Assembly (NCBI GenBank): GCA_002684495.1 | Contig: NYVG01000047.1 | Span: 1 to 49,889 of the forward strand | Length of the DNA stretch: 49,889 nucleotides | Reading direction: 5' to 3' | DNA from: Gammaproteobacteria bacterium | Lineage (GTDB): Bacteria > Pseudomonadota > Gammaproteobacteria > Pseudomonadales > Azotimanducaceae | Shown here: positions 5,232 through 39,460 of the stretch, one piece after another | How positions within the stretch are numbered: the first letter of the stretch is position 1 | Layout of the letters: every line of letters begins with the position of its first letter | Program-made: the position numbers and the translations under genes | The notes under the pieces: model-generated | The model's input: the letters and a program-made list of their open reading frames with translations, nothing else | What the model was told of the DNA's origin: nothing | Databases searched by the model: none

Positions 5232-5272
5232 TTTTTTCTCCCTCAATATCCGTGCCAAGGACAGGCTCGGAA

Positions 5273-5548: not shown

Positions 5549-7048
5549 TTATTGGTTCAGGGAGCTTTGTTCCGTGAGGGCAGCCGCCGCACGGTAATTT
5601 TCAAGTTTGTAGATAAGCCGGCGGCCTGCGGGTAGCGACGACTCCAGCCCCAGCCACTGGCCATTGGCCGAGTAATGCAGGGTTAGATCTAACGACTCGG
5701 CCTGCAGTCGATAGGATTTTCGGGTGTTGTCTGCGGTGCCGTCAGTAATTATTGGCTCTATCGTGACAGGCATTAGGCGGCCGTCTTGACCGTTCAAAAG
5801 CTGGGTCTGGGTCAGCAGTTTAGGAGACCAGTAGGCAAAGGTTGTGAGACAAGGGACGTTAAGGTCTTGACTAGCTTCGCCTTTGATTGTGTTGACCGCA
5901 AAACCTCCTTGGGTGCGCTGGCCGTTGAGCGCAATTTTTTCCCGACGGGTCTCTGTCGAGCTTTCAATGTACTCTAGACAAAGGTTTTCGTCGTAGCGCT
6001 CTTTCACTTCGTGGGTGTATGAAAATAAGGGCACGCGTAATAGTCGGTACTCAAAGTCGGCGCGGCTTGAAAGGTAAATCGACTGCCCGTCTCTAGTTAC
6101 GTCGAAGGAGTGATAACCAACCTCGCGGTTGTCAATAAAGGCCTTGAAGTACCAATGTTCAGTAGATGCTGGAATCGCCAAGCTCGGCTGGTTTAGTAGC
6201 AGCAAAGGTGCGCAGCAAAGAAGCATAAGGAGTGTTTTGGCTGCGGGGTTTTTCCTGCGTTGCAGTAGACGCTGTGGCTGTAAAAACACCGGAAAAAAAG
6301 CGGGAGTTTGCTGTTGATAGTTCTGATAGTCAGGGCGTCGCGCTGGTGCGCCTGACTCCATGCGCTCGACACCGGTGAAACGTAGCAGCAACCAGCTAAC
6401 CAGACCGATCGTTACCAAGCCGAACCAACTTCCCGCGCTGAGGGCAAGCAGACTAATGCCAAACCAGAAGCACCATTCGCCGAAGTAATTCGGATGACGC
6501 GATAACGACCACAGACCGGTGCGCAACAACTGGGTCTCACGCTGGCCGGGTGCAGACTGCTGTTTTAGGAACGCGCTTAGTTGTAGGTCGGCAATAACCT
6601 CGTACAGCAGCCCAAACAGGATTAGCGCGAACAAGGCCGAATCAATCAGTCGCCACGGCCCAGCATATTCGACGATGGGTAAAAAAGCGGCGCTGATGAC
6701 TAGTGCGAGTAATGCCTGTAGTAGATAGATGATAAAGAGGCTGGTGAATTTGAACAGCGGTCCCTGATTGGCGCGGATCTCAGTATAACGCCGGTCCTCG
6801 CTACGACCGGCTGCGCGCACTGCCAAGTAGGTGGCCAAGCGAATACCCCAGACAGCTACCAATAACAGTAGTAATATTCCGCGCCACTCTAACTGTGGTA
6901 GAGCAACACAAACACCAAAGCACACCATGACGTGATGCAGTGGCCATAAAATATCCACGTGGCCTAAGTTGTTGCTGCGCAAAGAGTGCAACCAGAGTAG
7001 CGCTGCGGCGAAGATCAGCCACGGCGCAGTTTGGAGTAAGATAGTCAT
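5549..7048 (-). CDS. Fusion: DUF1295 membrane enzyme + DUF6134-like periplasmic domain
   Basis: Two-domain protein of 499 aa. Residues 1-255 are a multi-spanning DUF1295 domain (steroid 5-alpha-reductase / isoprenylcysteine methyltransferase superfamily) with the motif LSRHPNYFGEWCFWFG near residue 185. Residues 270-295 contain a second hydrophobic segment that looks like a built-in signal/anchor (TLLMLLCCAPLLLLNQPSLA). Residues 300-490 match the soluble, beta-rich DUF6134 type (EHWYFKAFIDNREVGYHSFDV). These two are usually separate neighbouring genes, so the fusion is notable. The start overlaps the preceding NTF2-like gene by ATGA, so the two are translationally coupled. Families of this kind occur in light/singlet-oxygen response clusters linked to fatty-acid modification. 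The reaction of this protein is not established. Confidence 0.8.
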   Translation of the reverse strand: MTILLQTAPWLIFAAALLWLHSLRSNNLGHVDILWPLHHVMVCFGVCVALPQLEWRGILLLLLVAVWGIRLATYLAVRAAGRSEDRRYTEIRANQGPLFKFTSLFIIYLLQALLALVISAAFLPIVEYAGPWRLIDSALFALILFGLLYEVIADLQLSAFLKQQSAPGQRETQLLRTGLWSLSRHPNYFGEWCFWFGISLLALSAGSWFGLVTIGLVSWLLLRFTGVERMESGAPARRPDYQNYQQQTPAFFPVFLQPQRLLQRRKNPAAKTLLMLLCCAPLLLLNQPSLAIPASTEHWYFKAFIDNREVGYHSFDVTRDGQSIYLSSRADFEYRLLRVPLFSYTHEVKERYDENLCLEYIESSTETRREKIALNGQRTQGGFAVNTIKGEASQDLNVPCLTTFAYWSPKLLTQTQLLNGQDGRLMPVTIEPIITDGTADNTRKSYRLQAESLDLTLHYSANGQWLGLESSLPAGRRLIYKLENYRAAAALTEQSSLNQ

Positions 7049-7638
7049 CGTTTATCTGCAGCGAAGCGCCGCCCAACAGCCCGGACGCCCGCACCCAGCA
7101 CTGGTATATGAGAGTAGAAACCGAGTCCGCTATCCCAGAAGTCCTGATGCAAGATGACTTGGCCAGTAATGTCGAAGCGCACATGAGTAACGCCTAAGGT
7201 GTCGCTGGTAACCTCTTTATTAATAGGGGTGAAGCGCGCCTGCATTGACCAGATAAGGTAAACGTCCGCATCGCTTTGTAGTGTCTGGTGAATCTGCACG
7301 TCCACTCGCGTGCCCGCATCGCTCAGTCGGGTGAAGTGATCGACGACGGTCTTTTTGTCGCGCGTAACCATAAGAGCGTCGCTGAAATGCAGGTCCTCAG
7401 CGTATAACGAAGCGGCGGTCGTCCCAGTGGCCGGATCCCCCAAATTAGCGAGGAAGTCGACGAAGCGCTCAATGGATTCGGGGTTGACGTTGCGGTGTCC
7501 GGCGAAGTCATCGAGTGCTTGCCGATACTGGGCAGGGTAGCCAAGACGCTCGGAGTCGGGTGCGATAACACCGGCACAGCCGCTCGTAAGCAGACTCAAA
7601 AAGGCGATTAAAATAGCGTTGCGGGGGTAAAACTTCAC
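7045..7638 (-). CDS. NTF2-like (SnoaL-fold) lipoprotein
   Basis: 197 aa with a lipoprotein signal (lipobox LTSGC, Cys 21), so probably attached to a membrane on the periplasmic side. The rest matches the small NTF2/SnoaL-like cone fold: ESIERFVDFLANLGD, LYAEDLHFSDALMV, then a beta-rich section ending ITGQVILHQDFWDSG. Proteins of this sort accompany DUF1295, FAD-oxidoreductase and DUF2878 genes in photoprotective clusters. No catalytic residue can be assigned. It is first in a two-gene operon and overlaps the DUF1295 fusion by four bases. Divergent from the FAD-oxidoreductase gene, with a 189-bp shared regulatory gap. Confidence 0.78.
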   Translation of the reverse strand: MKFYPRNAILIAFLSLLTSGCAGVIAPDSERLGYPAQYRQALDDFAGHRNVNPESIERFVDFLANLGDPATGTTAASLYAEDLHFSDALMVTRDKKTVVDHFTRLSDAGTRVDVQIHQTLQSDADVYLIWSMQARFTPINKEVTSDTLGVTHVRFDITGQVILHQDFWDSGLGFYSHIPVLGAGVRAVGRRFAADKR

Positions 7639-7827
7639 TGTACGAAGCTAATTGTGTCGGCGTGAATGGCCAGTGAATTCATCCGGTAGACGCTTTCACA
7701 ACTGATTCACTAATATTTATCAACTATACATACCCTTTCAGATAGGCAAAGTCATGTTTGCAGTCCCGCCAGAAACGCGCCATTTGAGCGTGTCGGCAAG
7801 AGATCGTGCGCTCAGTAGGGGGCGTTC

Positions 7828-9144
7828 GTGAGGATTGCAGTGATAGGTGCAGGGATCAGCGGCATCGCTGCTGCGGATGCCCTGTCCGAGGCTGCCGACG
7901 TGACGCTATATGAGGCAGACCCGCGCCTAGGGGGACATACAGACAGCCATACCGTCCTACTTAGTGATCAGGTATACAGTGTCGATACGGGTTTTGTAGC
8001 GTTCAACGGCGAGTATCCACTCTTCTCATCCTGGTTGGAAAATCTCGGCGTGACTTCTCAACCAGCGCAAATGTCCCTCAGCGTGAGTCGCTGGCCCCAG
8101 GGCTTTGAATACGCAACCACCGATCTGCGCAGCTTATTTCCATCGTTCAAAGTCCTTTCATCTTATGCCCAATATCAGTTACTAGCGGATACACGACGCT
8201 TCAACCGCACCATTAGGCAAGCGGTAGAGAATCACCCAGATGAGGCCCTTGGTGACTACCTGCACCGGCAAAGCTACAGCCAGCGCTTCATTAATTGCCA
8301 TATCGTGCCCTTATGCATGGCCCAGTGGTCCAAAGCTGCCTTCGATGTATTGCAGATGCCACTGCGTTATGTAGCAACCTTTGTCGCTCAACATGGATTG
8401 CTGAGAATGGATGATAAACCCCAATGGCGGGTGATTCGGCGCGGCGCAACCCATTATCTAGAGGCTTTTGAGCGTCAATTTCGCGGCACCATCAAACTGC
8501 AGACACCAGTTCGGCAGGTGGCGCGCACAAACGGCTATGTTGAGGTGCTAACCGACGAGGGCAGCACGGATTATGATGCTGTGGTTATCGCCTGTCACAG
8601 CGACCAAGCCCTGGGCATACTGGAACAACCGACATCGCTGGAACAGCAGTTGTTGGGCGCGGTTCGATATAAGTCCACTCGCGTAGTGCTGCACAGTGAC
8701 GAATCGTTCATGCCGACCAAACGATCGTTATGGGCGAGTTGGAATGCGCAGATTCACGAGCTTGATGGGCCCGCCACCCTAAGTTTCTGGATGAATAAAA
8801 TTCAGTCGATCCGCGGCCAAGACTTTTTTCTGACTTTGAACCCTGCAACCACTCCGCGTCAGATTTGGACCGATCGTAGCTATGCGCACCCGATATTCGA
8901 TACGCCGGCGCTGCAGGCACAGTCGCGTCTGCAGGAGATTGATGGCATAGGCGGGGTATTTTTCTGCGGCTCCTATTGGGGTTGGGGCTTGCACGAGGAC
9001 GGCTTCAGTAGCGGTGTTGCGGCGGCAGGACGTTTGCGTACTAGCTTAAAAGGCAAGCCTAGCATTGTTGGAGCAGGAGACGGCAACAACGCAGGTGCGA
9101 GCGAGATCGACGCGATTATCGCTGCGGCGAAAAACCAGACCTAA
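7828..9144 (+). CDS. FAD-dependent amine-oxidase-like oxidoreductase
   Basis: 438 aa flavoprotein of the NAD(P)-binding amine-oxidase/desaturase superfamily. The dinucleotide site IAVIGAGISGIAAADAL starts at residue 2, and the typical FAD second motif LYEADPRLGGHTDSH follows. The C-terminal FAD block is FCGSYWGWGLHEDGFSSGV near residue 380. Start is a GTG after GTAGGGGGC. It is the relative of the protein next to DUF1365 and the cyclopropane-synthase-like enzyme in furan-fatty-acid/singlet-oxygen clusters. That function is inferred from family, not shown here. It is followed after 60 bases by DUF2878 and then a histidine kinase, forming a likely three-gene operon. Confidence 0.85.
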   Translation: MRIAVIGAGISGIAAADALSEAADVTLYEADPRLGGHTDSHTVLLSDQVYSVDTGFVAFNGEYPLFSSWLENLGVTSQPAQMSLSVSRWPQGFEYATTDLRSLFPSFKVLSSYAQYQLLADTRRFNRTIRQAVENHPDEALGDYLHRQSYSQRFINCHIVPLCMAQWSKAAFDVLQMPLRYVATFVAQHGLLRMDDKPQWRVIRRGATHYLEAFERQFRGTIKLQTPVRQVARTNGYVEVLTDEGSTDYDAVVIACHSDQALGILEQPTSLEQQLLGAVRYKSTRVVLHSDESFMPTKRSLWASWNAQIHELDGPATLSFWMNKIQSIRGQDFFLTLNPATTPRQIWTDRSYAHPIFDTPALQAQSRLQEIDGIGGVFFCGSYWGWGLHEDGFSSGVAAAGRLRTSLKGKPSIVGAGDGNNAGASEIDAIIAAAKNQT

Positions 9145-28225: not shown

Positions 28226-28364
28226 CCAATCAGCGACCTTTCGCGTACCTTCGTACGGGGCTTCGGGGATAGTTGTGCTACAGGTTGTCAGCCTGTGGCG
28301 TTAGCGATCACGGAGTTTGCTCAGGTGAAGAAGATCCTTGGGCGCTCTTATGGGGGAGCAAGAT

Positions 28365-29180
28365 ATGAGTGGTGGTGCCGAAATACCAAGCTGCGCAGTG
28401 GATACTGCGCCAGATGAAATGTATGGGCTATTGGCCGAAGCTGGCTGTCTCGTGGTAACTGGAATGGCAACGCCTGCTGAGTTGCAGGCCGTTAGGTCGG
28501 AACTGGACCCTTATCTTGAAGCGGCCAAGGTTGAAGCTGATGATACCGAGGCGTTCTATCCGGGTCATACCCGCCGTGTCATTGCGCTGATGCATCGGTC
28601 GCCGACGCTTTGTCAGCTCATGACCCACCCGACCGTTGAGCATTTAGGTGATCGCCATTTGCTAGAGAATTGCGTCAAGTGGCAGCTCAACGTTACGGCG
28701 GCACTGGAAATCGGGCCGGGAGCTCGAGATCAGATTCTGCATCGCGAAGAAGATTTGTACCCCTACTGGACGCCGCCTCGGCCAAACTTAATTCTGGCCA
28801 GTATGTGGGCGATAAGTGAGTTCACGTCGGCGAATGGAGGCACGCTAATCGTGCCCGGAAGCCATCGCTGGGATGCTGACCGAGTGGCTAAGCCAAACGA
28901 AGTTGTTCGTGCACAAATGCAACCGGGGTCGGTGCTTTTTTGGTTGGGGGGAACACTCCACGGCGGTGGTGCCAACGTCACCCGCGATGAGTGGCGTTAT
29001 GGTGTTTTATTCACCTACACTCTGGGCTGGTTGCGAACCGAGGAAAATCAACACCTGTCGATACCGATCGCGGATGTCCTTGCATTGCCGGACAAAACTC
29101 GCACCCGCCTCGGTTTTGATATGGACTACAACGGGCGTGGTCTGGGTTTTTATGATCCTAGAATTCTGGCACCGCGTTAA
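28365..29180 (+). CDS. PhyH-family dioxygenase (HxE variant)
   Basis: 271 aa from the ATG at 28365, with GGGGGAG seven bases upstream; the frame also opens at TTG 28338 and ATG 28350. Phytanoyl-CoA dioxygenase fold: the metal triad appears to be H126-R-E128 (QILHREED) with H199 (GGTLHGGGANV), and R211 may bind 2-oxoglutarate. The usual motif is HxD, so Glu at this position is a variation. The core TSANGGTLIVPGSHRWD is typical. It is probably downstream of the P450 in the same transcription direction. Substrate unknown. Differs from the PhyH at 101-1144 in length and motif. Confidence 0.85.
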   Translation: MSGGAEIPSCAVDTAPDEMYGLLAEAGCLVVTGMATPAELQAVRSELDPYLEAAKVEADDTEAFYPGHTRRVIALMHRSPTLCQLMTHPTVEHLGDRHLLENCVKWQLNVTAALEIGPGARDQILHREEDLYPYWTPPRPNLILASMWAISEFTSANGGTLIVPGSHRWDADRVAKPNEVVRAQMQPGSVLFWLGGTLHGGGANVTRDEWRYGVLFTYTLGWLRTEENQHLSIPIADVLALPDKTRTRLGFDMDYNGRGLGFYDPRILAPR

Positions 29181-29286
29181 TTGGGCCATTGCGAGCAATC
29201 GGGCACGGTTGCGTAATCCTTAGAACATAGCCGGTGATTTGCCGCCACTAAGACAGCTACCAGCATGACTTACTTTGGGAACCATT

Positions 29287-31185
29287 GTGACATCCAACTT
29301 TCTTGCCCCTGACATACGCTCGGTATTCAGTATCGATTTACGCGGGTTGGCGTTATTTCGTATTGCTCTTGGGCTGATTCTAATTGCCGATCTGTTAATC
29401 AGAGCGCCGGATCTTGTGTTCTGGCTGAGTGACGAAGGCGTCGCGCCCCGAGAATGGATTATTCAGTGGAACAACGATTGGCGCTTCTCTTTGTATTTTG
29501 CCCATGGCCATTGGCTGTGGGCGGCCCTGCTCAATGGCGTGGCCTTTTTGAGTGCTGTGGCTTTGATGCTCGGTTATCGAACACGCCTGAGCACGCTGTT
29601 TAGTTTTGTACTTCTGGGATCCCTGCATTTCCGTGCCCCCATGCTCTTGCAGGGTGGCGACATGTTGCTGGTTGCGATGTTGTTCTGGAGTATGTTTTTG
29701 CCATTGGGTGCACGTTATTCCGTAGACGCCACCTTAGTGCGCAATAGAACCCCGAGTGCTGCTGTGCCGTTGAACTCCACCAATACCTACTTGAGTGTCG
29801 CCACGGCGGCAATTTTGTTGCAGGCCATGGCGGTATATTTCTTTTCCGCGTGGTTAAAGACCGGTGCTGAATGGCAAGTTGACGGAACCGCCATCTACTA
29901 TGCCTTACACCTCGATGACTTAAATACTTGGTTGGCGCAACAGTGGCGTGATTGGCACCATTTGACTGTGCCACTTACGCATTATGTCTGGTGGTTGGAG
30001 CTGGTGGGGCCTGTGCTGATATTTTCGCCCTGGCTTAACCCCACGTTCCGCTACCTAGGCGTTCTAGCATTCGTAAGTCTAGAAGTGGGCTTTTTGTTCA
30101 ACATGCAAATCGGCTTATTCCCATACGTCTCTATCACGACGGTGCTGTTGTTTCTGCCCTCAAGCTTTTGGGATCGGGTGCAAGCCTATTTGTTCACTCC
30201 GCGCCGGGCGCGGGCTCAGCGTCTAACCATCTATTACGATCAGCCTTGCTCGTTTTGTGAAAAAAGTTGCCACCTGCTGCGAACCTTTCTTTTCTTAGAC
30301 AAAGCGGAAATTTTACCCGCACAAAGCAGGGCCGACGTTGCACAGTTGCTAGAGCAAGAATTTAGCTGGGTTGTAGAAGATAGCGCGGGTGCGCTAACAA
30401 CCAAGACCGCTGCGCTGGCAGCCCTGTTTAGGGCGTCGCCGGTGTTTTTCTTGCTCGTACCTCTCATTCTGTTTGCTGCTCCCATAGGTGACCGTGTGTA
30501 CCACTGGATTGGTCGTCACCGTGAGGGTTTTGGTCGGCTGTTTTCGATAGTGTTGCCTTGGCGCGACCCGAGCAAATTCCCGGGCGCACGGTCTCAGGCG
30601 TTTGTCGCAGTGATGCTGTTGGCTGTTCTGACTTGGAATATTCAGACCATTCCAGCATGGCGCACAGCGGTAATTGAACAATTTAATTTGCAACAGGATA
30701 CTCGCTTACCCTTCGAGCCAATGCTGAGATTGTTCAACCTTGCCCACACATGGAATATGTTTGCGCCTTATCCGCGCAAAAGGGACTCCTGGCTGGTCGT
30801 GCCGGCGCTGACAACTGAGGGCGAACTGGTGTATCTGGAAACCGGATCTCCAGCAATGAGCGAACAAGTAGAAACCGAACTTAAAAATATTCAGGTGTTT
30901 GATAACTATCGCTGGCGTAAATATTTGCAGCGACTCGCTGGTAAGCGGCATAAGGAATATCGGAGATACTATGGGCGCTGGTTGTGCAAAAACTGGCGCC
31001 ACCCCCAGGATCCGGGTTTGGGTCTGGCAGGTTTATTCATCTACAACAAAACTCAAGTGACGCCGCTGCCAGGTGAGCCAGAAAATCCTGTGTCTGCCAG
31101 ACGTATCTGGAGCCATTGGTGCGCGGGCTACACCGAGGAGCAGGTCAACGAGCAACTGTCCCAGTTGCTGGGACTCAGTGGTTAG
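29287..31185 (+). CDS. HTTM (gamma-carboxylase-like) membrane protein fused to a DCC thioredoxin-like domain
   Basis: Long membrane protein of 632 aa from the GTG at 29287 (GGGA upstream); a TTG at 29275 is also open. Residues 15-300 form an HTTM domain with several membrane helices, related to vitamin K-dependent gamma-carboxylase (LRGLALFRIALGLILIADLL, MLLQGGDMLLVAMLFWSM). Residues 314-425 are a DCC/DUF393 domain with YYDQPCSFCEKSC (CxxC at 321-324). A further C-terminal part of about 150 residues has a membrane helix and a soluble tail (WNMFAPYPRKRDSW). Bacterial HTTM reactions are mostly unknown. Convergent with the phosphoribosyltransferase at 31192, 6 bases apart. Confidence 0.87.
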   Translation: MTSNFLAPDIRSVFSIDLRGLALFRIALGLILIADLLIRAPDLVFWLSDEGVAPREWIIQWNNDWRFSLYFAHGHWLWAALLNGVAFLSAVALMLGYRTRLSTLFSFVLLGSLHFRAPMLLQGGDMLLVAMLFWSMFLPLGARYSVDATLVRNRTPSAAVPLNSTNTYLSVATAAILLQAMAVYFFSAWLKTGAEWQVDGTAIYYALHLDDLNTWLAQQWRDWHHLTVPLTHYVWWLELVGPVLIFSPWLNPTFRYLGVLAFVSLEVGFLFNMQIGLFPYVSITTVLLFLPSSFWDRVQAYLFTPRRARAQRLTIYYDQPCSFCEKSCHLLRTFLFLDKAEILPAQSRADVAQLLEQEFSWVVEDSAGALTTKTAALAALFRASPVFFLLVPLILFAAPIGDRVYHWIGRHREGFGRLFSIVLPWRDPSKFPGARSQAFVAVMLLAVLTWNIQTIPAWRTAVIEQFNLQQDTRLPFEPMLRLFNLAHTWNMFAPYPRKRDSWLVVPALTTEGELVYLETGSPAMSEQVETELKNIQVFDNYRWRKYLQRLAGKRHKEYRRYYGRWLCKNWRHPQDPGLGLAGLFIYNKTQVTPLPGEPENPVSARRIWSHWCAGYTEEQVNEQLSQLLGLSG

Positions 31186-31191
31186 CGAGTT

Positions 31192-31764
31192 TTAACTCAA
31201 CAGGTCACTTAAGAACGGTTTGTGTGTGCGTAACTCATCTTCGCTGATTCCGCGCATTTCGTAGGGTAGGACTACCCATTGGTCGGTCTCATGCAAAAAA
31301 TAGTCGGGATCGGGCGCGCTGACTTCGGTATGTTTCCACAGCGCAGCGACCCGCACATCCTCAGGCATATTGCGGCGTAATCCAGTAGACAACTGATCGA
31401 CTACGGCCCTGGTGTGTCGGCCACTCCGATAAACATCGTCGACGATCAGCAGTCGATCGTCTGCACTCAGGGCTTCTAACGCATAGCTCTTGCCGTGTAC
31501 GCGAATACCCTCTTTCGCTGCCGTCGAGCGCTCGTATTGGTGGCGGCCTTCGTAGGAGGTGCGAATGGTGGTGTGGTCGGTTGCCACGCCTAGGTAGGCG
31601 AGACACTCCTGCACTGCCAGTGCCACGGTGCTGCCGCCCCGCCACAGGCCTACAATGAATGTAGGTCGGTAACCGCTGGCGTAAATGATCTCACCTAGGC
31701 GGTAGGAATCGGCGATATGGGCTTGTTCGTTAACGAATAACTTGTCGTTGGTGGATGAATTCAT
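31192..31764 (-). CDS. Phosphoribosyltransferase (hypoxanthine/guanine type), variant PRPP loop
   Basis: 190 aa type I PRTase fold, probably converting a purine base plus PRPP to the nucleotide. The core hydrophobic strand LLIVDDVYRSGRHT (D109, D110, then R113-S114-G115) is the PRPP loop, but the usual D-T-G is R-S-G. FIVGLWRGGS supplies the first glycine loop. It shares WRGG, VQE, YFLHETD and KP with the divergent paralog at 31854, so the pair is duplicated. The start has no strong ribosome site. The changed loop may alter PRPP binding or substrate. Part of the purine island. Confidence 0.82.
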   Translation of the reverse strand: MNSSTNDKLFVNEQAHIADSYRLGEIIYASGYRPTFIVGLWRGGSTVALAVQECLAYLGVATDHTTIRTSYEGRHQYERSTAAKEGIRVHGKSYALEALSADDRLLIVDDVYRSGRHTRAVVDQLSTGLRRNMPEDVRVAALWKHTEVSAPDPDYFLHETDQWVVLPYEMRGISEDELRTHKPFLSDLLS

Positions 31765-31853
31765 AGGGCGGTTGGCATCTTTAGCGTAAATTTTTAATTC
31801 TTTTGGGCAACTGTACGTTGTGTTGTTAGCCTACTGTTATTGATAATGGCGGT

Positions 31854-32414
31854 ATGACAGACAAATTCTATATCGGCGCCGAAGAATTACTTGCAGACTC
31901 TTTTCGCCTTGCCCAGCAAGTTCACCAAAGCGGTTATGAGCCTACCTTTATTATGGCGCTTTGGCGCGGCGGCGCGCCCATTGGGTTGGCGGTGCAAGAA
32001 TACTTTGCTTATCGAAATATCGAAACCGATCATATCCTGGTTCGGACAAGCTCCTACCATGGAATTGACCAGCAATCGCGCAATGTCATCATTCACGGTC
32101 TGAGCTACCTGGTGAAAAATTTATCCGCCGAGGATCGTGTTTTGATCGTTGATGACGTATTCGACACCGGTCAAACCATAAATGCCATCATTGAGACAAT
32201 GCAGGCGCAGCTCAAACTCAATTTCCCCCAAGATATTCGCGTTGCAGTGCCGTACTTCAAACCCAGCCGCAATAAAACCGATCGTCTGCCAGAATATTTC
32301 TTACATGAAACCGATGAGTGGCTTATCTACCCGCATTCGGTCGAAGGCTTAACACCAGCAGAAATCAAAGCGCACAAACCCGACCTATATGCGGTCCTTA
32401 ATCGCCATCTTTAA
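31854..32414 (+). CDS. Phosphoribosyltransferase (hypoxanthine/guanine type)
   Basis: 186 aa PRTase with a canonical PRPP loop VLIVDDVFDTGQT (D100, D101, D104-T105-G106). FIMALWRGGAP is the first glycine loop, and the ending PEYFLHETDEWLIYP is shared with the paralog at 31192. Expected to salvage a purine base into the monophosphate in the cytoplasm. Divergent from its paralog with 89 bases between starts. Convergent with the adenosine deaminase gene, whose stop is 20 bases away. The pair fits with the deaminase, the NUP lipoprotein and the NCS2 permease as the last step of purine salvage. Confidence 0.87.
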   Translation: MTDKFYIGAEELLADSFRLAQQVHQSGYEPTFIMALWRGGAPIGLAVQEYFAYRNIETDHILVRTSSYHGIDQQSRNVIIHGLSYLVKNLSAEDRVLIVDDVFDTGQTINAIIETMQAQLKLNFPQDIRVAVPYFKPSRNKTDRLPEYFLHETDEWLIYPHSVEGLTPAEIKAHKPDLYAVLNRHL

Positions 32415-32433
32415 ATTTTGCAGTTCGCCTTGG

Positions 32434-33924
32434 CTAAAAGTTTGCCTCAAAGGCGCTAAGGCGTCGTTCTAATTCCCACTGCAGCATAGCCTTCGGGCTC
32501 TGGGCCAAAAACTCTGCGCAGCCGCTACTAGGCGCTACTGCACCCAAATCATCAGTGGCGCATGCCGCGATGGCGCTGTCGTCAGCGGTGTCCTTGAATA
32601 ACGGTGCCCCGGACAAAAAGCTGTATTGCAGAGAATTACGTGCGAAGTAACGAAGTTGTGAGTAGCTCAGATCATAAGTTGTTGTGGCACGTTGATACTC
32701 GTGGGTCAGGTCGATGCGTGATACCCCTTCGTCATCTGTCGACAGCGTTACCGGCACGCCGTATTCGAGGTAGGTCGGCAGTGGGTGGTCAGCATCTTTA
32801 ATGCCCAAGATAACGTCGTTACTGGTGAGGTTAATTTCAACCAAAATGCCCCTCTGTGCCATAGAGTTAAGCAGCGCGTCCATGTTGTCGTCATAGGCAA
32901 TATCAATCCCGTGGCCAATACGGGTGGCGCCGGCAGTTTCGATGGCATCGCGAATATGCCAGCCCAGATCCTCGGGTGGTACTAAACCCATGGTCAGTTC
33001 GCCTGCGTGTAAGGTTATCCCTGCTGGCTGACTCGGAAACGCCGCACTCAGTTCAGCCACGAACTGCATATGTTGATGATAATCGCGTAGTGCGATGCGG
33101 TGATCTTCTGGGGCGACAAAGTTCAGTGCCACAACCCGCGGATCCGCCTGCATGAGCTTAACGGCGAGAAGTGTTTGGGCGTACACCTGTATGGGTGCAA
33201 ATGTGCGCAGCACCTGAGCTTGATAACGCACCATGACATCGCATCCTATCGGCTGGGTGTCGGCGTCGGCGGTGCAACCGAGCAGTTCGGATTGACGTTT
33301 TTCAATGGCGTCAAAATGTTCGATCACCGTGTCGACGATAGTGTCGACTTTGGTGTGGTCTATGCGCTCGCCAAATGGGGCGTCCAGTTTGCCGGATTCT
33401 GCAGCCAGCTGTGTGACTTCCAACATGCCGAGGCTCAGCATTAGTTCCAAATACACCATGTTCTGACGCCCAGCGCGTCGTCGCGCTTCAGCCACCATAT
33501 CGCCGAAGCGCCCGGTCGCAGCTGAACGAAAGCGGTTGAATGTGGCAAAAAATTGGTCGTGGCCAGAAATCGGGCGACGTCCGTAGTTGCGAATGGACAA
33601 TGCATCGATAATGGGTTCTAACGGCACCGTGGACGTATCTGCCATTAGCTGGCGGAGCGGCTTGGTACCCTCGCAGGGCGGTGGGGTGATGATGTAGGTG
33701 TTGAGGTCAATACACTTGCCGTCTGCACTGGCCCACTCCAAGTACGACTCCGCATAGACCGCTCCGGAAAGATGGTTGTGCAAATCGCCGCCTTTCGGGA
33801 ATTGCTGTAAAAACTGGCGCAGTTTCACCGGATCTTGTTTGATCGACTCAAAATAGTTCGCGGCATTGTTGGCCAGCACCGGCCACGCTGAAATTGTTAG
33901 ACACAGCAGGAGCAGGGTCTTCAT
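32434..33924 (-). CDS. Exported adenosine deaminase (ADGF-like)
   Basis: Hydrolyses adenosine to inosine and ammonia. 496 aa from the ATG at 33924, whose product starts with the signal peptide MKTLLLLCLTISAWPVLA; ATG 33963 is an alternative, and the open frame to 34038 overlaps the upstream gene. Zinc and catalytic motifs: HNH (DLHNHLSGAV), HAGE (ITLHAGELT), HG (IGHGIDIAYD) and TLSTDDEGVSR with the two Asp. The extra N-terminal region and the export signal match secreted ADGF/CECR1-type deaminases, so it probably works in the periplasm. It lies 82 bases downstream of the NUP lipoprotein on the same strand, so the two are probably co-expressed. Confidence 0.9.
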   Translation of the reverse strand: MKTLLLLCLTISAWPVLANNAANYFESIKQDPVKLRQFLQQFPKGGDLHNHLSGAVYAESYLEWASADGKCIDLNTYIITPPPCEGTKPLRQLMADTSTVPLEPIIDALSIRNYGRRPISGHDQFFATFNRFRSAATGRFGDMVAEARRRAGRQNMVYLELMLSLGMLEVTQLAAESGKLDAPFGERIDHTKVDTIVDTVIEHFDAIEKRQSELLGCTADADTQPIGCDVMVRYQAQVLRTFAPIQVYAQTLLAVKLMQADPRVVALNFVAPEDHRIALRDYHQHMQFVAELSAAFPSQPAGITLHAGELTMGLVPPEDLGWHIRDAIETAGATRIGHGIDIAYDDNMDALLNSMAQRGILVEINLTSNDVILGIKDADHPLPTYLEYGVPVTLSTDDEGVSRIDLTHEYQRATTTYDLSYSQLRYFARNSLQYSFLSGAPLFKDTADDSAIAACATDDLGAVAPSSGCAEFLAQSPKAMLQWELERRLSAFEANF

Positions 33925-34006
33925 GGCGGCAAATGGTTTTATGGCGCAATCGGTGATTCTCATGCTACTCAGCACCCGCAACGAGTTGTGATCGGTGCTG
34001 CCGGCA

Positions 34007-35140
34007 TTACTCGGCGCTACCCGGCACCGAGACGGCATAGCGATCCCAATTCTCTAGCAGTTCATCGATAACCATGGAGCCGGTAATGTAAATGTTTTCT
34101 AACGACGCCTGTAAACCAGCATATCCATCATTCTCTTTCAGCAGGTTTTCCGCAGCGCTCACGCCGGGGGGTTGCATGGTGTAGTTGCTGCCGCCGCGCA
34201 AGACCAAGAACCGATCGACGTCGACTTTGTTGATTTTATCCAGATAGTGCAGGGCTTGGTACGTGCCGGTGTCCTCCATCGCGGAGGTAACAAAATCCGT
34301 GGCCCCGTCTGACCAATAGCTGACCCAGCGGTTAGCCCAATCATTCATTAGTTCGCCATGCCAAAACGTCATGGCGGCGATATGGCCGCCGGTAAGCACG
34401 AACGGTGGTTTCTGGGCGTTAGGATGCTCGGTATAGAGATTGCTAGTTTCTGCCAGCGTTTCTGGGTTCACCAGCGGTGCATCCTTGGTGAGTTCATAGG
34501 CCCAATCTCGCAGGGCCGGATTTGCTTGGAACATTTCGCCGGTGGGTTCCGGCCGTGCCGGATCGTAAGGATACTTTGTATAGCGGGCGAAAAATCCAGT
34601 ATCCCAATCATCAGGCATTTCCCGCGCGTCTATTTCGTGGCCGAGATCGCCATCTACCAGATAGGAAGACCAGGCCACGGATCCAATTGACGCGTCCTCT
34701 GGGTCGATGCCGGCAATACCCGCAACCATCCAGTAGGCCTGAGAGAGGTCAAAGCGCGGGTCTAGGCCCAAAGCCATAGTTGCAGTTGCAGACTTCGCGG
34801 TGCCTATCCCCGTAACCATGCCGAGAATTTGTGAGTCGCTGTTGTAATAAAGGTCGTGGTGAGATTGGGGAAAGGGGATGCGTTGGTTTAAATTGCGGCG
34901 CTCTTTCCATAACTGAAACTCGCCTGCGGTATCGCCCTCGTCAGCGCCAATTTCGAACATGGTCACTACCACTACTTTCACCGGTAGCGGTGCGGGTTCG
35001 AGGGACTGGGGTGCTGACCCTGGAGTGGACGTGCAGGCTGTAGTTCCGATCAACAGCAGCAGTGGTGCGAAGACTTTTAAGAGAAATGATCCAGTGATGG
35101 TGTTATTTGCGAATACGGAAGAAGAAATTAACTGGTGCAT
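34007..35140 (-). CDS. NUP-family purine nucleoside protein (lipoprotein)
   Basis: 377 aa of the purine nucleoside permease (NUP) family, whose fold resembles nucleoside phosphorylases. Motifs: VKVVVVTMFEIGADEGDTAG, GMVTGIGTAKSATATMALG, YWMVAGIAGIDPEDASIG, FVTSAMEDTGTYQAL and VLRGGSNYTMQPPG. The N-terminus is hydrophobic and ends in a lipobox-like GTTAC, so it is probably a periplasm-facing lipoprotein. The fungal member is called a permease, but this protein has no multiple membrane helices. A nucleoside-binding or phosphorylase role in the periplasm is my inference. AAGGAAA precedes the ATG. The adenosine deaminase follows, and a TonB receptor lies divergent upstream. Confidence 0.85.
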   Translation of the reverse strand: MHQLISSSVFANNTITGSFLLKVFAPLLLLIGTTACTSTPGSAPQSLEPAPLPVKVVVVTMFEIGADEGDTAGEFQLWKERRNLNQRIPFPQSHHDLYYNSDSQILGMVTGIGTAKSATATMALGLDPRFDLSQAYWMVAGIAGIDPEDASIGSVAWSSYLVDGDLGHEIDAREMPDDWDTGFFARYTKYPYDPARPEPTGEMFQANPALRDWAYELTKDAPLVNPETLAETSNLYTEHPNAQKPPFVLTGGHIAAMTFWHGELMNDWANRWVSYWSDGATDFVTSAMEDTGTYQALHYLDKINKVDVDRFLVLRGGSNYTMQPPGVSAAENLLKENDGYAGLQASLENIYITGSMVIDELLENWDRYAVSVPGSAE

Positions 35141-35617
35141 TGGGTTTCCTTAACTAGCGCGGCTTAATAACCTAGCTGAGCGATCAGTTTGGTAATTTGC
35201 GCCAGCATTTACCAGTCCTAAACGCCCCATAAATGGTCAAATTTAAAAAAGTTTTAGATTCTTAGCCCATAGTCCTAGACCCGTGTTCCACGATGGTGCA
35301 GAGTTCGCACCGGCGCACATTTATGGCTCGCTAGGAGGTAAAAAACTTACCTCATTTGCCAGTTTTACGTGAGCGCAAACGGCACAGTAATTGCACCTTA
35401 TAAATACAAAGAAAGATAAATACAAAAACGAGCAAAAAAAGTAGTAGGAAGGTAAAGGCAAACCGCAACAAGCACCCGGGAAGGGGGGCAATATAGGGCG
35501 ATCGCTTTTTTGAACCGAGGGTCGAACCTCTGATCATCAATCTACAGTGCTAACGCATAATAATAAAAACAGTAGTAACCATATCTAAACCCACTTAACT
35601 CAATACAAGGGGAAGGC
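35141..35617. other. 477-bp divergent regulatory region (NUP lipoprotein / TonB receptor)
   Basis: No supported gene. A perfect 7-bp hairpin (GAGGTAA at 35335-35341, TTACCTC at 35347-35353, AAAAC loop) lies near the middle and contains an AGGAGG-like stretch. The right half, 35400-35600, is A-rich on the plus strand and forms the leader of the receptor, ending with AAGGGGAAGGC before its ATG. The promoters of both the deaminase/NUP operon and the receptor must lie here. This makes it the natural place for a purine-responsive operator. I cannot name a regulator. Confidence 0.4.
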
Positions 35618-38107
35618 ATGTATTTTTCAAAGTCACGGTCTCTTTATGCATACGGCGTATCGATTGCTGCGGCGATTGCTGCCATGGCACCAATCACTTC
35701 TGCGCAAGCGGAGACTGCCCAAGCAGAAGAAGGCGTTATTGAAGAGGTCGTTGTAACCGGCGATCTGAACAGTTTGCCCGGCGAGAACGTGGAATCAATT
35801 TTTGGTTTCAATAAATCTATTTTAGAAACGCCGCGCAGCGTATCAACGGTGAGCGAAGAATTGATGGACCGCATGAATATGCAGGACATCGATGAACTGA
35901 TCACGGTATCTCCTGGCTCCTTTACCCAGTCCTTCTTTGGCGTGGCTGGCGGTTTGGATGTTCGGGGGACGCCCGGCGAGACTTATTTCCGTGGTATTCG
36001 TCGTTTGGACAATCCCGGCAACTACCCAACGCCCATTGGAGCATCAGACCGCGTCGACATCGTACGCGGGCCAGCATCGCCGATTTACGGCCCGTCAAAG
36101 ATTGGTGGTTATCTAAACTTCAATCCTAAGTCAGCGCGTATCGAAGAGACGGGCGCATATATTGCTGAAAACATCGGGGCGATTGCCTACACAACAGGCA
36201 GTTGGAACAAGAGCGTATTGACCGCTGAGGTCGGTGGCCCCGCTGAATTGGCCGGCAAGCCAATGGGTTTCTACTTGTACGGCGAGCTAGAAAATTCGGA
36301 CAGTTTCTACACAAACGCACCAGGTGTTGAGCAATCGCTGTTGCAAGCGAGTTTCGATCTCGATCTGAATGACAGGGTACAGCTGCAGTTTGGCGGTATG
36401 TACCACGACTACTCAGGTGCACAAAATGCCGGATGGAACCGTATTACCCAAGAGTTAGTTGACAACGGTACCTACATCACTGGTTCGCCAACGCCATTAG
36501 ATACAAATGGCGACGGTAAAATTTCCCATCAGGAATTTGATGTCACCGGCGACGGTTTTACTGACCTCAACCCATTCGCATTCTGGACCTTTGGCACAGG
36601 TGGCCTAACCGCAAATTCGCCACTGACCTATGCGGATATCAGTGGCTTCTTTGATGCCGATTTAATGGCCCTGACCAATGTGGGCACTGCAAAGTTAGAC
36701 CCTTCGGCCACCCTGATCGCTGCTGATGATCAATTGACCAACGAAGTGACCACCCTGTATCTGGATGTGATTATCGATACGGATTCAGGTTGGGAAGTGA
36801 CCAATCAAATGTTCTACGAGTCCTATGAAAACCTGAACGAAAATGCCTACGGCTTTTCGCAATTCCACGAAACCTATGTATTCGAAGAGAAGTTGATCGT
36901 AGCTAAGTCGTTTATCTTCGACAGTCTCGTTGCGTCAGTCCAATTGTCGCCATCATTGCGTTATACCAACTTCGAGCATGGTGACGATTACACCAATGAA
37001 TATTTCCATCGCCGCGATCTAACCGGGCCAAGCACGGCGCTGGATGCGCGATTGCTGGCCACGCGCATCGACGATGACTACACCGAATACTACATCGGTG
37101 AATACACTGACTTGGGGCTGGCGTTTCTAACGGACCTGGCTTGGGAAAATGGTTTGTCGGTGCTACTGGGCGCCCGCTACGACACAATAGAAATGGAAAG
37201 CCGTCAGCCCGTTGATAAGTTGTTGTTGGCGAGCTCCAATAACTTCTGTACTGATGGCAGTTGCATTGACGTTGCGGCAGACAATGAAGTGTCGGGTACC
37301 TCTTGGACGGTGAGTGTGTCTTACGAGGTGGCCGATTCCGGCATCATTCCCTACGTCACTATGTCAGAACAGGCCACAGTTATTGCGGGGCAGGGTGCTG
37401 AGTTGACCGTGAGCAACGTAGCGTCTGGCGGTGCCTTTGATTCTTCAGAGCTCACCGAATACGGTATCAAAGGTGAACTGTTAGAAGACGACCGGCTGTA
37501 TTTCTCATTGTCTCGTTATGAGCAGGAGCGCACAGATTTCTCTGCACAATCCATTGTGACCAACCAAGCCGTTCGCACCAAGGGTACAGAGTTTGAAGTG
37601 CGCTGGGCCGTTAACGATGCGTTATTCGTAGGTGCGACCTATACCAATGTGGAAGCCATCAACTTAAGCAGTGTTGCCGATGGCAATCGTTTCAGCTTCT
37701 ACGGTGGCGACGATCTGCCATTGGTGCCACCGCACTTGGTGTTCGGCGGGCAGATTGGTGGCCCGGTGAACGTCGCAGCCAGCGGCGGCCGTCGTGCAGG
37801 GATGCCAGAAAATATATTTTCGGCGTACGGAACGTATCTGTTTGATAACGGTCTGACCATCAGCGCTAGCGTCACCGATGTAGAATCGGCGCCCTCAGGT
37901 TTCTCCAATAGCATTATCCTGCCGGCGTATACGCTGCTGAATATGACCATTGGTTGGGAGTCTGAATCTTGGAACGTGTCGCTAACGGGCAAGAATCTAA
38001 CGGATGAGCTATACTTCCGCTCTAACTTCCCCAACCTCTTTGGCAGCAATATCGTATTGCCAGAATTGCCACGACACTTCTTAGCAAAGGTTCAGTACAC
38101 CTTCTAA
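35618..38107 (+). CDS. TonB-dependent receptor with an EF-hand-like insertion
   Basis: 829 aa outer-membrane receptor. Signal peptide to about residue 32 (PITSAQAETAQA), TonB-box-like EEVVVTGD, then a plug with DRVDIVRGPASPIYGPSKIGG and a barrel that ends in HFLAKVQYTF with the terminal Phe used for barrel assembly. At residues 295-306 the sequence DTNGDGKISHQE fits a calcium-binding EF-hand loop exactly. DVTGDGFTD follows at 308-316 as a second, shorter acidic loop. This insertion probably lies in an extracellular barrel loop. It is divergent from the NUP lipoprotein and converges with the purine permease. I infer purine nucleoside or nucleic-acid breakdown products as ligand. Confidence 0.93.
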   Translation: MYFSKSRSLYAYGVSIAAAIAAMAPITSAQAETAQAEEGVIEEVVVTGDLNSLPGENVESIFGFNKSILETPRSVSTVSEELMDRMNMQDIDELITVSPGSFTQSFFGVAGGLDVRGTPGETYFRGIRRLDNPGNYPTPIGASDRVDIVRGPASPIYGPSKIGGYLNFNPKSARIEETGAYIAENIGAIAYTTGSWNKSVLTAEVGGPAELAGKPMGFYLYGELENSDSFYTNAPGVEQSLLQASFDLDLNDRVQLQFGGMYHDYSGAQNAGWNRITQELVDNGTYITGSPTPLDTNGDGKISHQEFDVTGDGFTDLNPFAFWTFGTGGLTANSPLTYADISGFFDADLMALTNVGTAKLDPSATLIAADDQLTNEVTTLYLDVIIDTDSGWEVTNQMFYESYENLNENAYGFSQFHETYVFEEKLIVAKSFIFDSLVASVQLSPSLRYTNFEHGDDYTNEYFHRRDLTGPSTALDARLLATRIDDDYTEYYIGEYTDLGLAFLTDLAWENGLSVLLGARYDTIEMESRQPVDKLLLASSNNFCTDGSCIDVAADNEVSGTSWTVSVSYEVADSGIIPYVTMSEQATVIAGQGAELTVSNVASGGAFDSSELTEYGIKGELLEDDRLYFSLSRYEQERTDFSAQSIVTNQAVRTKGTEFEVRWAVNDALFVGATYTNVEAINLSSVADGNRFSFYGGDDLPLVPPHLVFGGQIGGPVNVAASGGRRAGMPENIFSAYGTYLFDNGLTISASVTDVESAPSGFSNSIILPAYTLLNMTIGWESESWNVSLTGKNLTDELYFRSNFPNLFGSNIVLPELPRHFLAKVQYTF

Positions 38108-38132
38108 GCAGTCGTGCTTAAAGCATTAAAAG

Positions 38133-38158
38133 GCGGCCCAAACGGGCCGCTTTTTTTT
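38133..38158 (+). terminator. Intrinsic terminator after the TonB receptor
   Basis: Perfect 7-bp stem GCGGCCC / GGGCCGC (38133-38139, 38144-38150) with an AAAC loop and eight T residues. It ends the receptor transcript. The A-run on the other side (TTAAAAG) is short, so it would also work weakly for the convergent permease. Confidence 0.9.
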
Positions 38159-38161
38159 GCG

Positions 38162-39460
38162 TTATAAAAATACGAATTTAGCGGCGAATACCAGAGCGAC
38201 TAATAGCACTGCCGCGGGCACTTCCTTGACCCGCCCTGCAAGCAGCTTGATGACGACGTAACTGATAAAGCCCACCCCGATGCCGTTGGCCACAGAAAAG
38301 CTCAGCGGCATAACCAATGCAGTAATAATCGCGGGGGTGGACTCGGTTATGTCCGGCCAGTCAACGTCCACCAAACTTTGCGCCATAGAGGCGGATACAA
38401 ACAGCAGCGCGGCAGCAGCTGCGTAACCGGGAATGCTCTGAGCTAACGGTGCAAGGACTAGACACAGCAGAAAGGCGATACCAATAACCACAGCGCTGAG
38501 TCCGGTGCGGCCACCACTCTCAACGCCTGCCGCACTCTCAATAAACGAGGTGGTTGAAGAGGTGCCGAACAGTGCGCCCACAGCCGTGGCGCTGGAGTCA
38601 GCGACTAAGGCGCGCCCTAGGCGCGGCAAGCGGCCAGCTTCGTCCATCATCTTTCCTCGGGTGGCGACCCCGACAAGTGTTCCGGCGGTATCGAAAACAT
38701 CCACCAGCAACAGAGTCAGCACAACACTGAGCATTGAAATATCTAATGCTGCGGCAATGTCCAGCTGCATAAATACCGGTGCGGCGGAGGGTGGTGCGGA
38801 AGCCAACCCGACAAAGTCCGCTTGCCCTGTGATCCAGCCAATCACCGATACCAGCACCATGCCCAGTATCACAGCACTGCGATAGCCTGTAGCGGCCATG
38901 GCGGTGATGGCAAAAAAGCCCGCAAAAGCCATCAGCGGACCAAAGGTGATGAGGTTCCCCAGAGTCACGAAGGTCGCAGCATTGGCCTCGATGATGCCGG
39001 CGTTCTTCATGGCGATAAAGGCGAGAAAAAAGCCAATGCCCGCAGCCATGCCGAGTTTCAAATTGCGCGGAATTGAGTTTATCAACCAGGCTCGAATAGG
39101 CAGCAGGCTGATCACAACAAATAAAATGCCAGAGAGAAAAACCGCGCCTAGAGCAGTCTGCCAGGGATGCCCTGAGCCGACCACCACAGCGTAAGTAAAG
39201 AACGCGTTCTGGCCCATACCCGGTGCTAGGCCGATGGGATAATTGGCGAGCAAGCCCATAACTAAGGAACCAAAGGCCGCAGCGCAGCAGGTGGCAACAA
39301 ATACCGCGCCAAAGTCCATCCCCGCATCGGACAGAATCAAGGGGTTCACAACCGTGATGTAGGCCATGGCCAAAAAAGTAGTGAGGCCAGCCGTGACCTC
39401 GCGAGAGAAGTTGGTGCCGTTTGCCGACAAACCAAAGAAACGATCAACAGAACTGAGCAT
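38162..39460 (-). CDS. NCS2 purine permease, AzgA/PbuG-like
   Basis: 432 aa inner-membrane transporter with about 12-14 helices. The AzgA-type hallmarks are TFLAMAYITVVNPLILSDAG near residue 28, GLAPGMGQNAFFTYAVV near residue 77, and GTSSTTSFIESAAGVESGGR near residue 300. It imports adenine, guanine or hypoxanthine by proton symport in the family. The start ATG at 39460 has AAGGC upstream. A perfect 14-bp palindrome sits about 28 bases upstream of the start. It is the inner-membrane import step of the purine island. Confidence 0.92.
   Translation of the reverse strand: MLSSVDRFFGLSANGTNFSREVTAGLTTFLAMAYITVVNPLILSDAGMDFGAVFVATCCAAAFGSLVMGLLANYPIGLAPGMGQNAFFTYAVVVGSGHPWQTALGAVFLSGILFVVISLLPIRAWLINSIPRNLKLGMAAGIGFFLAFIAMKNAGIIEANAATFVTLGNLITFGPLMAFAGFFAITAMAATGYRSAVILGMVLVSVIGWITGQADFVGLASAPPSAAPVFMQLDIAAALDISMLSVVLTLLLVDVFDTAGTLVGVATRGKMMDEAGRLPRLGRALVADSSATAVGALFGTSSTTSFIESAAGVESGGRTGLSAVVIGIAFLLCLVLAPLAQSIPGYAAAAALLFVSASMAQSLVDVDWPDITESTPAIITALVMPLSFSVANGIGVGFISYVVIKLLAGRVKEVPAAVLLVALVFAAKFVFL

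Follow-up and report, generated by a model that had tools for sequence, protein, structure and literature searches.

The question raised by the locus described here is how heterotrophs capture purines and nucleosides present at very low concentration, compounds which, according to the accessible text of two reports, are among those released by marine phytoplankton and drawn down by bacteria (PMC11698098, PMC8027193). The locus occupies positions 31192-39460 of a contig of 49,889 nucleotides (NYVG01000047.1, assembly GCA_002684495.1; hereafter the window) from a gammaproteobacterium of the Azotimanducaceae, and includes genes for two phosphoribosyltransferases (PRT1 and PRT2), an exported adenosine deaminase, a lipoprotein of the NUP family, a TonB-dependent receptor and a permease of the NCS2 family. 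It is read here as a purine nucleoside scavenging locus, in which TonB-driven uptake across the outer membrane would be followed by periplasmic stripping to the base and rebuilding of the nucleotide; the probability given to this reading is about 0.7.

The host genome (G000, in which the window lies on contig C42) comprises 3.33 Mb in 62 contigs, with a completeness of 98.7% and a contamination of 5.4%. The search of named genomes with the NUP protein gave K189A-clade, OM182 and other Gammaproteobacteria records as close kin, and going by these clade names the K189A- and OM182-type relatives are presumably marine.

The conserved core of receptor, lipoprotein and deaminase

All six open reading frames (ORFs) proposed by the first-pass annotation are present, in the order PRT1, PRT2, deaminase, NUP, receptor and permease, and the families proposed for them were recovered by Pfam (PF00156 twice, PF00962, PF06516, PF07715 and PF00860). 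Since the receptor and PRT2 are encoded on the forward strand and the other four on the reverse strand, the genes do not form a single operon.

The conservation of this neighbourhood was examined in the best 80 of the 292 relatives found by scanning named genomes with the window NUP, which are the basis of all counts out of 80; counts out of 64 loci refer to those in which NUP is flanked by no less than 5 kb on each side, 16 of the 80 being excluded. Many of these loci come from close kin and the counts are not independent events. Of the 64 loci, 50 have a TonB receptor no more than 5 kb from NUP, belonging in 48 of them to the type of the window (more than 600 bits to its receptor), while the exported deaminase lay within the same distance in 45 and both together in 41. 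The chance expectation for a receptor near NUP is about 7 of 64 at the receptor density of the window genome (27 plug domains), and 21 at triple that density. The complete set of receptor, deaminase, NCS2 permease and PRT within 10 kb of NUP was found in 10/80 loci.

Moreover, 97 genomes were searched with thresholds of E <= 1e-60 for the receptor, 1e-40 for the deaminase, 1e-20 for NUP, 1e-40 for NCS2 and 1e-10 for the PRTs, giving matches in 30, 22, 30 and 48 genomes, respectively, and in 38 for each PRT query. Receptor and NUP co-occur in 25 of the 97, against 9.3 expected (hypergeometric p 1.4e-13, uncorrected for kinship), and a tally of positions places them about 3.2 kb apart or less in 19 of these 25. 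The receptor was matched without NUP in G019, G024, G035, G045 and G052, and NUP without the receptor in G005, G011, G036, G073 and G096. The receptor, the NUP lipoprotein and the exported deaminase are thus the conserved core, and their neighbourhood exceeds chance, because it recurs far beyond the genus. The idea that the gene set is conserved together elsewhere holds for these three in several gamma- and alphaproteobacterial families, and less firmly for the permease and the PRTs.

The receptor gene (35618-38107, forward strand) codes for a protein of 829 amino acids with a plug domain (PF07715, 45 bits); PF00593 was not reported by the Pfam scan for the barrel, the region of which matches solved receptors, so that a plug followed by a large beta-barrel is recognised. 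Its best solved relatives are 9rvq (an unnamed TonB-dependent receptor), CntO, FoxA and FptA. A tree was built by a quick method, with long branches flagged, from 69 receptors encoded no more than 6 kb from NUP (that of the window included) and 23 other receptors of the window genome, four of its 27 being excluded (L186, which is the window receptor, L185, with no ORF, and the short L170 and L173). One clade with SH-aLRT support of 100 holds 61 of the 69 NUP-near receptors and none of the other 23. This clade spans alpha- and gammaproteobacteria, including Sphingomonadaceae, Sphingobiaceae, Hyphomonadaceae, Halomonadaceae, Cellvibrionaceae, Microbulbiferaceae, Porticoccaceae, Halieaceae, Echinimonadaceae and Lysobacteraceae. 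Four of the eight receptors outside it (L138, L141, L144 and L159) make up a group of their own beside NUP, as if this second type had taken the place of the usual receptor; in L141 its plug and barrel were confirmed (6182-8407).

The NUP lipoprotein and the exported deaminase

The product of the NUP gene (34007-35140, reverse strand) matches PF06516, as do all 52 members of the family alignment, scoring 369 bits against a gathering cut-off of 27, and is likely to be a periplasmic purine nucleoside hydrolase or phosphorylase. Its N-terminus carries a lipobox-like TTAC. Export signals were judged by simple rules rather than by SignalP, and N-termini were counted in 64 of 82 NUP ORFs, those fitting the chosen start patterns and length limits: 63 of the 64 begin with a hydrophobic segment, and 46 show a lipobox by a pattern so loose that this figure is an upper estimate.

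The name of the Pfam family would make this protein a true nucleoside permease, and the NUP of Candida albicans is described as a purine nucleoside transporter in yeast in the accessible text of one report (PMC9431476). Nevertheless, the mature window protein contains no hydrophobic 19-mers of membrane type, as against 11 in the NCS2 permease, and thus lacks the several transmembrane segments of a membrane permease; its lipoprotein-like signal and the enzyme resemblances given below also speak against transport. In the same report, yeast expressing the Candida NUP, treated there as a permease, showed no sensitivity to toyocamycin, while a CNT transporter conferred it (PMC9431476). A secreted nucleosidase would also explain the missing sensitivity, and could mimic a transporter in growth tests. 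A permease function is therefore considered very improbable.

The resemblances in question are with nucleosidases. The futalosine hydrolase model TIGR03664 was matched by 49 of the 52 members, always below its cut-off (best E 4.6e-07; 23.8 bits for the window NUP against a cut-off of 124.7), and a second futalosine hydrolase model by 32, all other NCBIfam families being matched by one member each only. Furthermore, four motifs of E. coli Mtn (GIG, GxAG..P, ME and RxxS[D/N]) are present in NUP in the same order; the patterns, written after viewing the window NUP and Mtn, recover all four in Mtn, two in DeoD and one in Udp. Within these motifs M288, E289, R315, S318 and Asn319 are identical in 52/52 members, and the position of Asn319 is occupied in Mtn by the catalytic Asp. 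In trimeric purine nucleoside phosphorylases, Asn at such a position favours 6-oxopurines. Relatives of solved structure were not found by single-sequence search, and the profile search gave one chance match (E 0.33). The lack of membrane segments, the futalosine hydrolase matches and the Mtn-like motifs suggest that NUP is an enzyme, probably of the nucleoside phosphorylase/nucleosidase superfamily, rather than a permease. In 20/80 loci (for example L093, L101, L103, L130, L131 and L146) a further NUP paralogue, with 38-43% identity to that of the window, lies within 10 kb and perhaps differs in its base preference.

The deaminase gene (32434-33924, reverse strand) matches PF00962 (A_deaminase) with 92 bits, and its translation contains DLHNH, LHAGE, GHG and STDD, thus showing HxH, HAGE, HG and DD, the zinc and catalytic motifs of adenosine deaminase. 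Since the score to the equivalog model TIGR01430 is 94.4 bits, below the cut-off of 216.55, adenosine is suggested as substrate by the family and the context. The ORF as listed is open to 34038 and overlaps NUP, while a start at ATG 33924 gives a signal-peptide-like opening, and the latter is the likelier true start. Hydrophobic N-termini were found in 58 of 60 homologues (of 65 ORFs, again those fitting start patterns and length limits), the exceptions being L115, cut by a contig end, and L093. This exported enzyme is the only PF00962 protein found in the window genome.

A putative purine nucleoside route and its alternatives

The gene families suggest the following route. The receptor would take purine nucleosides (adenosine, inosine, guanosine or close relatives) across the outer membrane with energy supplied through TonB; in the periplasm the deaminase would convert adenosine to inosine and the NUP lipoprotein would then cleave off the base. 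By analogy with the trimeric phosphorylases, Asn319 would suit inosine and guanosine, a preference which fits deamination coming first. The permease would move the base inward, where the two PRTs would turn it into nucleotide.

As regards these last steps, the permease (38162-39460, reverse strand; PF00860, 166 bits, 11 hydrophobic segments) has no solved relatives under E 0.01 other than the adenine/guanine permeases AZG1 and AZG2 (best AZG1, 7e-63, 216.5 bits) and gives 27.6 bits to the pbuX model, whose cut-off is 414; its kinship is thus with AZG rather than with the uracil/xanthine NCS2 proteins, which bears out the AzgA-type label of the first-pass annotation and makes purine bases the probable cargo. 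PRT1 (31192-31764, reverse strand) scores 28.5 bits to PF00156 (cut-off 26.3), its nearest solved chain being the purine phosphoribosyltransferase 1vdm (E 1.3e-06), and carries WRGG and a loop of PRPP type (DDVYRSGRHT), motifs that were examined in 11 PRT1-like rows. The divergent PRT2 (31854-32414, forward strand) scores 54.4 bits against the same cut-off, has a canonical DDVFDTGQT loop and the purine PRTs 1vdm and 4z1o as solved relatives, and reaches 39.4 bits to the HGPRTase model TIGR01203, below its cut-off of 150. PF00156 together with the WRGG (PPi) and DD..[ST]G (PRPP) loops points to purine phosphoribosyltransferases, with a putative base preference.

A link with purines is also visible around the core in other genomes. 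A gene for ring catabolism or for guanine or 8-oxoguanine deaminase occurs in 51/80 NUP loci and a cytosolic-type adenosine deaminase in 39/80, with homology thresholds chosen by us, while none of these genes was found around the 27 receptors of the window genome (loci of about 3.3 kb each, that of the window's own receptor included). In the cluster of G044, the core is accompanied by a cytosolic-type adenosine deaminase, PuuE, urate oxidase, guanine deaminase, HIUase, OHCU decarboxylase, XdhC, xanthine dehydrogenase subunits and allantoate amidohydrolase. Curated cut-offs were passed in representatives by PuuE, guanine deaminase, XdhB, XdhC, allantoate amidohydrolase, adenosine deaminase, allantoicase, 8-oxoguanine deaminase, urate oxidase, HIUase and OHCU decarboxylase. 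In L083, whose receptor is close to that of the window, a class-V aminotransferase gene and an M20-family gene like allantoate amidohydrolase lie just upstream of the permease gene; the aminotransferase appears PucG-like, with no match to a curated PucG model.

Genes of purine ring catabolism surround the same core in many relatives; in the window genome the end point is likely to be salvage, because the sole adenosine deaminase is exported and no xanthine dehydrogenase or OHCU decarboxylase was recognised. For this reason ring catabolism was set aside for the window organism: OHCU decarboxylase was not found in its genome, and all five of its MoCoBD proteins fall under the xanthine dehydrogenase cut-offs, which the XdhB of a relative passes.

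Several observations weigh against the scavenging route. The linkage of its inner steps is weaker, with NCS2 within 10 kb of NUP in 20/64 loci and a PRT in 13/64, and the receptor is absent within 10 kb in 9/64. Receptor and NUP lie farther apart or on other contigs in G003, G007, G014 (where the receptor match is only 35% identical), G022, G023 and G025, and in a few cases receptors of the same family as that of the window are distant from purine genes (G003:C14, G025:C14). None of the purine catabolic genes sought was found in the window itself, and the PRTs of the locus are not the only ones of the host, since the genome carries apt elsewhere, as well as a gene that resembles HGPRT but scores below the cut-off. 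No regulator gene lies within the six-gene stretch, and Rfam gave no matches at gathering scores over the whole window, and thus no known purine riboswitch. As for NUP, PF01048, the Pfam family to which nucleoside phosphorylases usually belong, was not among the matches of the 52 members, and hhalign of the NUP alignment against the single sequences of Mtn, DeoD and Udp, which are weak profiles, gave nothing above the level of the unrelated E. coli controls DeoC and UbiE. Among family models, those of siderophore receptors come closest to the receptor, with scores under the cut-off. Finally, nucleosides are small enough for porins, and TonB-driven import is not obviously needed.

This last point would favour a receptor for a larger or different purine ligand (nucleotides, oligonucleotides, methylthioadenosine, a nucleoside conjugate or a cofactor) processed by the periplasmic enzymes, with plain nucleosides entering through porins. 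An exported-looking 5'-nucleotidase (PF02872 and PF00149 in L109) in 4/80 loci (L109, L112, L128 and L137) would suit such a ligand, as would the fact that futalosine hydrolases are the nearest curated relatives of NUP. Nevertheless, plain nucleosides would need no more than the deaminase, the nucleosidase and the purine catabolism of these loci, which were not systematically searched for nucleases or conjugate-cleaving enzymes, and a larger ligand is considered rather unlikely. An even lower probability is assigned to a receptor for siderophores or a cofactor, with the purine genes as mere neighbours. The solved relatives of the receptor, the members of its family distant from purine genes, and the score of 101.1 bits to the siderophore receptor model TIGR01783 (below the cut-off of 223.5) are compatible with that function, but one receptor clade stands beside NUP across many families of two classes, and where it is missing in four loci another receptor type fills the place. 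Moreover, no Fur-like site stood out in the gap upstream of the receptor, the best box found by a crude scan (11/19) being equalled by 181 of 200 mononucleotide shuffles. The joining of all six genes into one TonB-driven purine pathway, proposed from the window alone, is therefore retained as an inference supported for the core, with the permease and the PRTs as plausible members in this lineage.

With regard to known systems, the locus resembles the TonB-dependent nutrient loci (polysaccharide utilisation loci, and the loci of the sucrose and maltodextrin receptors) in combining a receptor with exported enzymes, a carrier in the inner membrane and cytoplasmic enzymes, all serving a single nutrient; it differs in that the nutrient would be a small purine nucleoside and in that the strands are mixed, not forming one operon. 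No SusD-like gene appeared in the general Pfam scans of the window genes, in which no dedicated search for one was made. The ribose/nucleoside utilisation system of Bacteroides thetaiotaomicron reportedly ties TonB-type outer-membrane uptake to nucleoside cleavage as well, but it belongs to the SusC/D type of Bacteroidota and is aimed at ribose. In enteric bacteria, Tsx, together with NupC and NupG, also lets nucleosides pass the outer membrane, but as a passive channel, and cleavage is cytoplasmic rather than periplasmic.

Also comparable are the purine operons of SAR11, SAR86 and SAR116, in which an uptake transporter accompanies a phosphoribosyltransferase, or genes of ring catabolism form an operon (PMC11698098), a marine pairing similar to the present one; the accessible text of that paper, unlike the locus described here, makes no mention of an outer membrane, adenosine deaminase, periplasm or TonB. 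Similarly, in the text available, the Shewanella regulons include an adenosine deaminase and a purine transporter controlled by a purine riboswitch, with no TonB mention (PMC3223726), the words nucleoside, nucleotide, purine and adenosine are absent from the paper on marine TonB transporters (PMC3400609), and the study of nucleoside drawdown names NupC and an MFS purine transporter and no nucleoside TonB receptor (PMC8027193). Among the listed titles and abstract beginnings of the open-licence literature no report of TonB-driven purine nucleoside uptake was found, the nearest being that on purine cross-feeding (PMC11698098).

The locus would be a variant among TonB-dependent nutrient loci, extended to purine nucleosides. 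The broader claim has somewhat better than even odds: a previously undescribed clade of TonB transporters in alpha- and gammaproteobacteria would be dedicated to purine nucleosides, working with a periplasmic deaminase followed by NUP, a lipoprotein acting as nucleosidase on 6-oxopurines, which would leave only the base to be carried across the inner membrane, and the whole "NUP permease" family would be misnamed. If true, this would bring a further class of substrates into the TonB-dependent transport of Proteobacteria, set right the function implied by the label "purine nucleoside permease" and provide, in the receptor clade, a marker gene for the purine trade between marine phytoplankton and bacteria.

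Regulatory candidates and neighbouring genes

Between NUP and the receptor, a dyad (TGGTAA-N13-TTACCA, 35190-35214) is a candidate operator, with one match in the window against 0.03 expected; by eye it is also present in the close kin L081, L082 and L084, that is, in 3 of the 11 other aligned rows. The best PurR box in the same gap (10/16) was equalled by 103 of 200 mononucleotide shuffles. A LysR regulator gene accompanies 23/80 loci, all of one sequence type. A terminator-like hairpin lies 3' of the receptor gene (38128-38155, forward strand), found by a consensus scan which gave 13 sites against 11.0 in shuffles.

Other genes recur near NUP. A gamma-glutamyltranspeptidase-like gene (PF01019 in L110) was found in 17/80 loci, two of them weak (among them L083, L105, L108-L110, L112, L117, L121, L128, L132, L137, L144, L150, L151 and L154), frequently in the company of PucG-like, amidase, TauE/SafE (TauE in 12/80) and allantoate amidohydrolase genes. 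A 2OG-Fe(II) dioxygenase with DIOX_N, possibly a purine hydroxylase replacing another enzyme, occurs in 9/80 loci, three weak (L083:4252-5166, L120, L153, L156:495-1430, L158 and L160 among them). In some K189A/OM182-type kin an NMT1/THI5-like binding protein is encoded near NUP (4/80 loci: L085, L088, L089 and L111); in L088 (9388-13680) it is accompanied by genes of ABC type and one for PhyH, placed between NUP and the deaminase.

In the window, genes for a PhyH dioxygenase and an HTTM-DCC fusion protein (28338-29180 and 29275-31185) adjoin PRT1 and are conserved in L081, L082, L084 and L089, and a second TonB receptor (2475-5258) lies beside a CoA-transferase and a PhyH gene. Elsewhere in the genome, two PF00156 matches of equal score and open-frame length (L199 and L200, on G000:C9 and G000:C25) suggest a duplicated stretch in the assembly.

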